Positions 18,676 to 37,073 of a stretch of DNA of 64,000 nucleotides are shown one piece after another (position 1 is the first letter of the stretch; every line of letters begins with the position of its first letter). The notes beneath the pieces were generated by a model that worked only from the letters and a program-made list of their open reading frames with translations, was not told where the DNA came from and did no database searches. The stretch comes from Acidobacteriota bacterium (GTDB taxonomy: Bacteria; Acidobacteriota; Thermoanaerobaculia; UBA5066; Gp7-AA6). The stretch is from positions 1 to 64,000 of the forward strand of contig DAHUXD010000023.1 of assembly GCA_027307335.1 (NCBI GenBank), read 5' to 3'. The position numbers were made by a program, and so were the translations under genes.

Positions 18676-18753
18676 TGCCTCTTCCTCCTTCGTGTCTGCT
18701 GGAGGATCTGTACGCGAAAGCAACGAAGGGGTTTAGGGGAGTCGGTGCTTTCG

Positions 18754-27300: not shown

Positions 27301-27687
27301 GTGAGCGGCCGGCGGTTCCGCCGACTGATTCTCCTCGCGCTCTTGGTCGGAGTCGGCTACTGGATCTACAAGGACCGCCCGACCGTGTCGGGATTCATCG
27401 ACTCGGTGACCAATCCGCTCCTCGGATCGAAGGCCGCGGTCGAGGAGTCGGAGCGCAACCGCGTCGTGAGAGACGCGAGCACGGTGGCGACCGAGCAGAC
27501 CGACGCCGCCGTCGGCACTCTCCGAGAGGGCATGTCCACGTACGAGGTGAAGGACCTCCTCGGCGAGCCGGAAAAAAAGGAGGAGGAGAAGGCGGAGACG
27601 GCTCTCCGCGTGCGCTGGACGTACTCCCGCCTGCACCGCGTGCTCGTCTTTCAGGACGGGCGCGTGATCTCGATCGCGATCAAGTAG
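27301..27687 (+). CDS. BamE/SmpA-like small membrane-anchored protein
   Basis: A 128-residue protein with an N-terminal membrane helix (about 8-22), a charged linker and a C-terminal domain (about 72-128) of the SmpA/OmlA/BamE type: LREGMSTYEVKDLLGEPEK followed by WTYSRLHRVLVFQDGRVISI. BamE folds are used in outer-membrane assembly lipoproteins and in small inhibitors, so the role is uncertain; there is no lipobox, only a helix. GTG 27301 has GAGGG seven bases upstream. Its last eight bases overlap the end of the convergent glucokinase gene. Confidence 0.72.
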   Translation: MSGRRFRRLILLALLVGVGYWIYKDRPTVSGFIDSVTNPLLGSKAAVEESERNRVVRDASTVATEQTDAAVGTLREGMSTYEVKDLLGEPEKKEEEKAETALRVRWTYSRLHRVLVFQDGRVISIAIK

Positions 27688-28732
27688 CGGGTCTTTTCGG
27701 CGCCTGGCCCTCGCTCCGCTCGGCCCGGTCGCCGACGCGGCGTTCTCTCGCCGCGTGCGCGGCCGCGGCCGCGGCGCCGTAGAGGCCCAGCCGGGAATCG
27801 AGCACGACGCGAACCGGAATCCGATCGAGCAGCCTCTCCATCGGAGGCTTCGCGCGGAACGCGCGCCGGAAGGCGGGAGAGCGCAGCGCCGGGAGGATCT
27901 TGGGGGCGATCCCGCCGGCGATGTACACGCCGCCGGTCGCCCGGTACTGGAGCGCGAGGTTGCCGGCCTCGGAGCCGTAGATCTCCACGAAGTGCGCGAG
28001 GGCGGCGCGGCAGAGCGGGTCCCGCCTTGCGAGCGCGAGCGCGCTGATGAAGGCCGCGCGGTCCTCCGCGTGCCGCAGCCGCCGCTCGACGGAGGCGCTC
28101 CGCGGGGCCGCCCCGACGCGTCCGAGGAATTCGTACAGGAGCGCGAGTCCGGGGCCCGAGAGCACCCGCTCCCGCGTCGCGCGCCCGAAGCGGCCGCGCA
28201 GCCAGTGGACGAGTCGATCTTCGAGCGGCGAACGGGCGCCGAGGTCCACGTGGCCGCCCTCCGACGGGACGACGACCGGGTCGGCGGCGCGCCGCCGCAC
28301 CAGGACGGCTTCGCCGAGCCCGGTGCCCGCGCCGAGCAGCGCGACCGGTCCGACGGGGTCGGCGCGGCCGGGCAGGAGCGTCGCCACGGCGCGCGGCCGG
28401 AGGAAGCGCAGGCCGAGCGCGTTCGCGCCGAAATCGTTGACGAGCGCTACGCGCGGGATGCCCGTCGCTCGCGCGAGAGCGCGCTCGTCGAGCTTCCAGC
28501 CGAGGTTGGTGATCCTCGAGCGCCCCGCGCTCACTGGGCCCGCGACGCCGAATCCGGCGGCCGACGGGCGGCGGCGCTCGCCGGCGAGAAAGGCCGCTAC
28601 GATCTCCGCCAGGCCGCGGTGCTCCGCGCTCGCGTAACGCTCGAGTCGGCGCACGCGGCAGCGGTTCCCCGCGAGGTCGACGATGGCGAGCGCCGTCTTG
28701 GTCCCCCCGACGTCGCCGGCCAGGATGCGCAC
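27680..28732 (-). CDS. glk: Glucokinase (ROK/Glk type)
   Basis: ATP-dependent glucokinase of the Glk family, 350 residues. Seen: phosphate-1 motif LAGDVGGTKTALA, GVAGPV, NLGWKLDE, the catalytic aspartate in LVNDFGANALGL, LGAGTGLGEA, and the glucose-binding EGGHVDLG and EIYGSEAGN. It supplies glucose-6-phosphate to glycolysis. GTG 28732 gives the usual Val/Met-Arg-Ile-Leu-Ala-Gly-Asp N-terminus; a GTG at 28741 is possible. The last roughly 20 residues (about AARERRVGDRAERSEG and after) are encoded by a dispersed repeat, an extension not expected in the family. A terminator-like hairpin lies in the leader. Confidence 0.93.
   Translation of the reverse strand: MRILAGDVGGTKTALAIVDLAGNRCRVRRLERYASAEHRGLAEIVAAFLAGERRRPSAAGFGVAGPVSAGRSRITNLGWKLDERALARATGIPRVALVNDFGANALGLRFLRPRAVATLLPGRADPVGPVALLGAGTGLGEAVLVRRRAADPVVVPSEGGHVDLGARSPLEDRLVHWLRGRFGRATRERVLSGPGLALLYEFLGRVGAAPRSASVERRLRHAEDRAAFISALALARRDPLCRAALAHFVEIYGSEAGNLALQYRATGGVYIAGGIAPKILPALRSPAFRRAFRAKPPMERLLDRIPVRVVLDSRLGLYGAAAAAAHAARERRVGDRAERSEGQAPKRPAT
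27703..27755 (+). repeat. Dispersed two-hairpin repeat, copy 3 (inside glk 3' end)
   Basis: TGGCCCTCGC, CTCGGCCC, GACGCGGCGTTC and CTCGCCGCG in order. It lies within the 3' coding end of glk and is translated as the C-terminal tail of glucokinase. Confidence 0.85.
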
Positions 28733-28805
28733 GCGCGGCACGGTACCATCGCGCGCGCCCGGCCGCGGCGAAGCCCGGCGGGGGGTGCGGAGTCCCTTCG
28801 CGGGC

Positions 28806-28872
28806 AAAAAAAAGCCCCGGGACGGGGTGGGGCCGCCCGGGGGGCGAAAGGAGGAGGTTGAGAGGTTCCTTT
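28806..28872 (-). terminator. Terminator-type hairpin in the glk leader (possible attenuator or sRNA end)
   Basis: On the minus strand CCCCGGG (28839-28833 side) pairs with CCCGGGG and is followed by eight T residues (28813-28806), a canonical intrinsic terminator, yet it lies 74 bases upstream of the glk start and after no coding gene on that strand. Just before it, AAAGGA and TCCTTT arms (28867-28872 and 28847-28852) can pair. Either glk transcription is attenuated or a short RNA ends here. Confidence 0.6.
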
Positions 28873-28966
28873 GCTCGCCCGGAGAGATTGCAAGCGCATG
28901 GCCATACCGGACCATTGTGGTAAATACCGACACGTCAAAGAGTTGGAAATCGGCTTCGGCTCTCTC

Positions 28967-30288
28967 ATGACGAGAATTGTCAGTCGCAATGGCTGCCGGG
29001 TTGCGACAAATTGCGGATCCGTGCGTGCCTCGCCGTGGCGCCTGCCGGCGCGTCTCCTGGCGGGCGCCGTCTCGGTCTTCTCGCTCCTCGTCCTCGGCGG
29101 CTGCGCCTTCATCTTCTCGGAGAAGCGGACCGTCTATCAGTTCGATCCGGGCTACGGCGTCGAGAGTCCCGAGTTCGTGCGCTCGCTCGACGGCCTCGGC
29201 ACGGAGATGGTGCCGGGCAACCGCGCGCGGCTGCTCGAGAACGGCGAGGGCATCTTCCCCGCGATGCTCGACGCGATCGCGCGCGCCGAAAAATCCGTGA
29301 ACCTCGAGATCTACATCTTCGATCACGGCACGATCGCGACGCGGTTCGCGGAGGCGCTCGCCGAGAGGGCGCGGGCCGGCGTCGAGGTCCGACTGCTCGT
29401 CGATGGCTGGGGCTCGAACCTCGGGCCTCTCGAGGCGCAGATGACGGCCGCGGGCGCCCGCGTTCGCGTCTACAAGCCGCTCAAGCTCTACTCGATCGAT
29501 CGGGTCGGCAACCGCACCCACCGGCGCATCCTCACGATCGACGGCCGCATCGGGTACTGCGGCGGCGTCGGCATCGACGACCGGTGGAAGGGCAATGCCC
29601 GCGACCCGGACGAATGGCGCGACACGATGGTCGAGATCGAGGGACCCGTGGTGGCGCAGCTCCAGCACGTCTTCGCGCAGGACTGGGTCCACACGACCGG
29701 CGAGGTCCTGAACGGCGATCGGCAGTTCCCGGCGATCGCGGACGCCGGGACGGTGCAGGCCCAGGCGATCGCCGCGGCGCGCGCGGACTCGATCTCGATG
29801 TCGAAGCTCGTGCTGTACATGGCGATCCAGGCGGCGCGGCGGCGCATCTGGATCGAGAACGCATACTTCGTTCCGGACCGTCAGATCCGCGAGGGGCTCG
29901 CCGCGGCGTGGACGTGCGCGTGATCGTTCCGGGCGCGCACACCGATTCGCCCAACGTGCGCTTCGCCTCCCGCTACCACTACGGCGTGCTGCTCGAGGCG
30001 GGCGTGGGAATCTACGAGTACCGGCCGACGATGATGCACAACAAGGTGATGGTCGTGGACGGCATCTGGTCCACGGTCGGCTCGATCAACTTCGTCAACC
30101 GCTCGATGACGAAGAACGCCGAGGTCAACTTCGCGGTCTACGATCGGGCGTTCGCGGCGAAGGTCGAGAAGATGGTCCTCGCCGACCTGGCGCGCTGCGA
30201 CGTGCTCACGGAATCGCAGTGGAAGCAGCGCGGTTTCTTCACGCGCGTGGGCGAGCTGTTCTTCTTCCTGTTTTCGGAGAACTACTAG
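28967..30288 (+). pseudogene. Cardiolipin synthase-like PLD protein, frameshifted
   Basis: A phospholipase-D family protein of the cardiolipin synthase type, with a lipoprotein-like N-terminus (LLVLGGC). The N-terminal half (28967-29923) carries the first HKD-like motif as HRRILTID, with Arg in place of Lys. At about 29900 the frame ends in WTCA-stop, while the continuation (RGVDVRVIVPG, then HNKVMVVDG and SINFVNRS with the intact second HKD) is in the frame one base earlier. A one-base loss near 29890-29907 explains this. It could be a true pseudogene, programmed shift, or assembly error in a GC run. ATG 28967 is the likely start. Confidence 0.8.
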
Positions 30289-33529: not shown

Positions 33530-33666
33530 CGGCTTGTGCTCGCGCGCACCGAGCAGGGTGTCACCGGCGAGTCCGGTCCCGCCGGCAAGCCATTCTGACG
33601 ATGTCACTTAGAAGGGCGTCGGGGCGTGGCGCGGTGCTTGCTCGATCCGAAGACAAAGAGGCAAGC

Positions 33667-36885: not shown

Positions 36886-36913
36886 GCCGGCCCGAAGGCC
36901 GATTCGCGGCGCC

Positions 36914-37033
36914 CCTCATCTTTTTCTCCTTCGGGAGAAGTCCGGAATTGGCACCGGCCGGTTTCGCGCCGCGATGCGCGCACCCGGTTGCCGTGGGGTC
37001 GTCGGGCCGGTCCCTCGCCCACTCTGGATGTGG
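36914..37033 (-). promoter_or_regulatory. SAM-I (S-box) riboswitch aptamer
   Basis: The minus strand shows the S-box signature in order: P1 5' arm CCACATC, AGAGTGGGCGAGGGAC, CGGCCCGACGA, CGGCAACC, a variable P3 arm, GGTGCCAATTCC, a P4 hairpin TTCTCC-CGAA-GGAGAA, and the P1 3' arm GATGAGG. It senses S-adenosylmethionine. It is followed by a terminator and the methionine-synthesis fusion gene, so high SAM should switch that gene off. Confidence 0.95.
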
Positions 37034-37073
37034 CCGGGCCGTGAGAGGCCCGAGCGATCAAAGAGCCGGACTG

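Follow-up and report, generated by a model that had tools for sequence, protein, structure and literature searches.

The RoxS/RsaE and LhrC-type small RNAs (sRNAs) of Firmicutes carry C-rich loops that are aimed at ribosome-binding sites. In Sinorhizobium, the CCUCCUCCC motifs of NfeR1 silence the translation of ntrB (PMC10746234). The window analysed in this study, i.e., the whole stretch of 64,000 nucleotides, contains an element upstream of the glucokinase gene glk which, judged from its sequence and its relatives, is quite probably a free-standing gene for a sigma-54-dependent, trans-acting anti-Shine-Dalgarno sRNA of a new family working like NfeR1. The sRNA gene was placed at 28806..28878 on the minus strand on the basis of its conservation, its single copy in the genome to which the window belongs (4.37 Mb, 65 contigs) and the lack of any matching Rfam family at the gathering score. 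It has its own promoter, its own intrinsic terminator and a conserved seed, which is partly paired in the predicted fold, and it contains no long open reading frame. The Rfam scan at relaxed thresholds returned nothing credible, only weak matches. A SAM riboswitch (RF00162, 62 bits) was found elsewhere in the window, at 36913-37034 on the minus strand.

The initial annotation had described a terminator-like hairpin with eight U residues upstream of glk, and this hairpin was located on the minus strand, with its stem at about 28841-28815, its eight T at 28813-28806 and 73 nt between the U run and the glk start (GTG, 28732). No gene of the same strand precedes it, as had been stated, and upstream of it lies a phospholipase-D-like gene in divergent orientation. 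The hairpin belongs to an intrinsic terminator (28806..28841, minus strand), which was delimited by terminator scan, RNA fold and alignment and carries a C-rich loop (GGCCCCACCCC) before U8. Covariation and conservation were also seen in relatives, the hairpin being kept in three genera, with an invariant loop and one compensated pair (G-C to C-G) among the three sequences. The AAAGGA/TCCTTT hairpin said to precede it was upheld in part: the repeat is present, but its conservation is limited to the 3' half (TCCTTT, part of a longer motif), and in the alignment the two relatives show GATCAAAA or GAAACAAAA in place of AAAGGA. Between 26500 and 31500 the hairpin was the sole terminator-like site, and shuffles of this region averaged 1.9 of them; the folding z-score was -1.8 for 28806-28885, and the whole leader of 225 nt gave -0.1, which was uninformative and set aside. 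Because the shuffles average 1.9 and the z-scores are modest, the hairpin by itself is not statistically remarkable, and the excess over chance lies in the conservation, not in the hairpin alone.

The transcript is predicted to be about 73 nt long, with a start at 28878 +/- 2 that was placed from the -12 element. This predicted start is 12 nt past the GC of the -12 and coincides with the 5' base of the first hairpin, the outermost pairs of which sit just upstream of it. The 5' hairpin (28842..28880, minus strand) is formed in the RNA fold by GGGCGAG (28880-28874) and UUCGCCC (28848-28842), and the three sequences all retain its closing stem, with 95.8% of the alignment cells paired. The 3' side of this hairpin doubles as a putative anti-Shine-Dalgarno-like seed, ACCUCCUCCUUU (28847..28858, minus strand), which is invariant in three genera and resembles the anti-Shine-Dalgarno tail of 16S rRNA. 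The CCUCCUCC motif is partly paired in the predicted fold of the window RNA.

The conservation was measured on three sequences, those of the window genome and of G001 and G002, two relatives of the same family (f1) that belong to other genera. Positions 28806-28880 were invariant at 57 of 75 sites, as compared to 8 of 56 just upstream, and the pairwise identity was 81-85% for the RNA, 30-60% for the stretch from -12 to +1 and about 34% for the DNA upstream. A BLAST search with the intergenic region matched both relatives over exactly the sRNA element, and the unsupervised match to G002 covered 28904-28802 of the window, beginning with the first base of the -24 box and ending just beyond the U run. 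Palindrome, promoter and RNA are spaced identically in the three genomes, and conservation does not extend beyond them. With three sequences, only one compensated base pair was available within f1. Matches to CCTCCTCCNTTCGC across the order outside f1 lacked the sRNA anatomy and were rejected.

The promoter TGGCCATGCGCTTGCA (28889..28904, minus strand), with GG at -24 and GC at -12, is conserved in the three genera and its flanks are not. The block reads TGGCC[AG]-N5-TTGC[AT] in the three genera, a sigma-54 -24/-12 element; it resembles TGGCAC-N5-TTGCA, with GG and GC 10 nt apart and this spacing kept in all three. Two sigma-54-like sites were found in the 64 kb, where about 0.3 were expected; the second is TGGCGCGGTGCTTGCT at 33627-33642 on the plus strand. 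The distance from the -12 element to CCUCC is 31-32 nt in the three genomes. Further upstream lies the palindrome TGACAATTCTCGTCA (28968..28982, minus strand), a putative site for an activator (enhancer-binding protein), which is conserved at a fixed offset to the -24 GG. The form TGACAA-N4-CGTCA has the same offset in the three genomes and occurs once per genome, always at the sRNA locus, and the other matches to a looser palindrome pattern in these genomes are of the TGACGA type. We infer from its sequence and position that the palindrome is probably bound by a sigma-54 activator. The genome encodes rpoN (E 2e-67), which is present in 19/19 genomes of the order, as well as 15 sigma-54-activator-like matches and an Hfq homologue. 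TGGCC-type sigma-54 boxes also occur upstream of a short open frame at L210 1365 and L215 1374 (both minus strand); these short frames read MANVTIKLT and MAKEVRITLT, and in G000 and G002 they have sigma-54 activator genes close by.

Relatives of the RNA were found in the rest of the class. The pattern ACCTCCTCCTT-N15-45-T6, searched without the promoter as a criterion, matched in 29 of 149 class genomes, and the control matched in none. Among these class loci, picked for CCTCCTCCTT or CCUCCUCC plus a T run, a sigma-54 box was present in 23 of the 25 with enough upstream sequence, against a background of 1.9% per 90 nt in the same DNA; three of the 23 are the f1 loci themselves, so the independent count is 20/22. 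Most of these boxes are the textbook TTGGCACG-N4-TTGCT. The class RNAs have a 5' hairpin, leave ACCUCCUCCUUCNUCC unpaired and end in a terminator in which two pairs show compensatory changes, and the CCTCCTCCTT core is fixed in an alignment of 20 class relatives, all of which had been selected for that core. Most loci of families f6 and f11 are flanked by MurB on one side and by a GAFTGA sigma-54 activator gene on the other (Pfam E 1e-58 to 1e-62); the activator gene and the RNA are convergent. Some class loci are located elsewhere. The closest f1 relatives of this f6/f11 activator were checked as well, and none had an sRNA-like promoter next to it. Family f6 has additional terminator RNAs of the CCTCCTCCTT or CCTCCTT type that lack a sigma-54 box (L054, L060, L075 and L078, at about 1501-1570 of the matched strand); they have a common CCGTAnAC-like block upstream and may be paralogues that depend on a different sigma factor. 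A third variant is perhaps represented by the CUCCUUCA-CUCCCUCUCCUC segments that precede terminators in families f7 and f18 (L052, L055, L057).

At the level of the phylum, the sigma-54 plus CCTCCTCC pattern gave many chance matches in 396 genomes, together with clear further groups. Since looser promoter patterns match much coding DNA by chance, only loci with the full anatomy were used; the distant matches of the R1 model, mostly plain terminators or coding DNA, were left out of the counts. In families f41, f67 and f76, nine loci (L160-L168) that were selected only for CCTCCTCC have in common a UGACCUCCUCCUGGUCA hairpin, which is invariant, and a long stem whose CCCCCCC loop does not vary either; compensatory changes occur in 12 of 23 pairs. 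Their anatomy is a sigma-54 box, a UGACC-UCCUCCU-GGUCA hairpin and the C-loop hairpin. They are flanked on one side by the gene of an acyl-CoA dehydrogenase and on the other by that of a protein weakly resembling S24 peptidases, after which comes secA. Several of these loci have no U run, so the element may act there as a leader. Further variants were found in families f82 and f78. Core-pattern matches outside Acidobacteriota (L080-L083) are due to chance because promoter and terminator are absent. The class and phylum groups were found via the motif, which is therefore not independent evidence there; independent support comes from the promoter, from the flanking hairpins and from covariation. 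The f1 RNA is likely homologous to the class- and phylum-wide RNAs, judging from the shared core and anatomy and not from alignable length.

The initial annotation had offered two readings of the hairpin, attenuation of glucokinase and an undescribed small RNA between divergent genes. The latter agrees with a conserved promoter, RNA and terminator, with the lack of an Rfam match and with relatives at unrelated loci. For the former, transcription would start from the sigma-54 promoter at 28878 and mostly terminate, and regulated read-through would express glk (27680..28732, minus strand), the downstream neighbour, which is 58% identical to glk of G001 and G002 (the G002 orthologue matches Pfam Glucokinase at 1.1e-95). 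The gene is indeed the next of annotated size on the strand in 3/3 f1 genomes, at the close distance given above in the window. However, the distance to glk varies from about 70 to 400 nt: in G002 about 390 nt and a small open frame lie between the two, and in G001, where the distance is about 67 nt, a second terminator stands between the sRNA and glk. At the inspected loci of f2, a family of the same order, glk directly follows a coding frame and the element is absent, the RNA relatives elsewhere in the class are not beside glk, and the predicted folds show no competing antiterminator hairpin or alternative pairing. From the G001 and G002 spacing and the absence in f2, the link to glk is therefore local to the f1 family and may be only positional, and we regard a cis-acting attenuator as unlikely. 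The second terminator of G001 (L006, about 1495-1460, minus strand) has the loop GUCCACCUCCC, as if the terminator had been duplicated.

The terminator could otherwise be the 3' end of the phospholipase-D-like gene, or the RNA could be derived from its 3'-UTR, as this gene lies upstream and is co-directional in G001 and G002. In the window the gene is divergent, so the terminator is not its own, yet promoter, spacing and RNA are kept, and each locus has its own sigma-54 box; such an origin is thus very improbable. This gene, of the cardiolipin-synthase type (28871-30288, plus strand), is split over two frames near 29910-29925, which reflects either an assembly frameshift error or a broken gene. 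We give similarly little credence to a protein-binding decoy of the CsrB/RsmY or CrcZ kind that would not act by base-pairing. CrcZ is also sigma-54-dependent, but the repeated GGA in loops that is typical of CsrA decoys is reduced here to a single GGA not conserved as such, and the CA-rich repeats of the CrcZ kind are absent.

For the trans-acting anti-Shine-Dalgarno sRNA, which we prefer, the following mechanism is proposed. Under a stress or nutrient signal, an enhancer-binding protein at TGACAATTCTCGTCA would activate the sigma-54 RNA polymerase at TGGC-N7-TTGC, and transcription from near 28878 to the U8 terminator would yield the RNA of about 73 nt. This RNA would expose two CU-rich segments, ACCUCCUCCUUU and the terminator loop CCCCACCCC, which could base-pair with target mRNAs at their purine-rich ribosome-binding sites to repress translation, perhaps aided by Hfq. 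The sequence, its architecture and conservation, the promoter match and the genes for rpoN and Hfq are observed; transcription, activator binding, target pairing and the targets themselves are inferred. This is the best-supported reading, and the seed is supported by its invariance within each group and by the NfeR1 precedent. The CCUCCUCC motif is compatible with very many ribosome-binding sites, so that it does not by itself explain target specificity. A scan of the window for start regions matching the seed gave one candidate by eye, at 18681 on the minus strand, where AAGGAGGAAG (18681-18690) lies shortly before an ATG (MKTRFV...); it is a candidate target only. Duplex energies against sites in the window were dominated by GC content and were dropped. 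We tentatively suggest, with less than even confidence, that anti-Shine-Dalgarno RNAs under sigma-54 control, including the window RNA, form an as yet undescribed set that extends over the whole phylum Acidobacteriota, by which activators may dampen the translation of groups of strongly initiated mRNAs. If this is true, such RNAs would in effect mimic the ribosome's own anti-Shine-Dalgarno tail.

Acidobacteriota are a dominant soil phylum, and a conserved RNA whose promoter class can be read and whose seed is clear offers a testable sRNA circuit, to which the sister families add an activator gene next door. In a search of open-licence papers, no described sRNA of such a kind was found in Acidobacteriota. 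The Burkholderia anti-hemB (RF02837), CcsR1 (RF02791) and suhB/mmgR (RF00519) families gave weak scores over the CU-rich segment and terminator, and these matches were rejected as chance-level (13-15 bits versus gathering thresholds of 41-65). The window RNA is similar to RoxS/RsaE and LhrC in its C-rich loop, while phylum, promoter and structure differ and no Rfam match was obtained. With Qrr (PMC10162802), CrcZ and GlmY it shares a short RNA, a -24/-12 promoter and an upstream activator site, whereas sequence, structure and mode of action differ, again with no Rfam match to any of them. The similarity to NfeR1/alpha-r14 of rhizobia (PMC10746234) consists of an anti-Shine-Dalgarno motif of the CCUCCUCC type, which is unpaired in NfeR1, of a compact trans-acting RNA of about 100 nt and of a tie to sigma-54 via ntrBC. 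NfeR1 is alphaproteobacterial and has three hairpins, each with CCUCCUCCC, and a sigma-70 promoter; in contrast, the window RNA is acidobacterial, is preceded by a sigma-54 promoter and has two hairpins with a single CCUCCUCC. It thus does not show the three CCUCCUCCC hairpins that define alpha-r14, and neither the alpha-r14 promoter CTTAGAC-N17-CTATAT nor any sigma-70-like site was found in the region. The window RNA also suggests that sRNAs of the anti-Shine-Dalgarno kind originated, or have survived, under the control of sigma-54 outside Proteobacteria; we rate the kind of RNA as known, and the phylum and the sigma factor as new.
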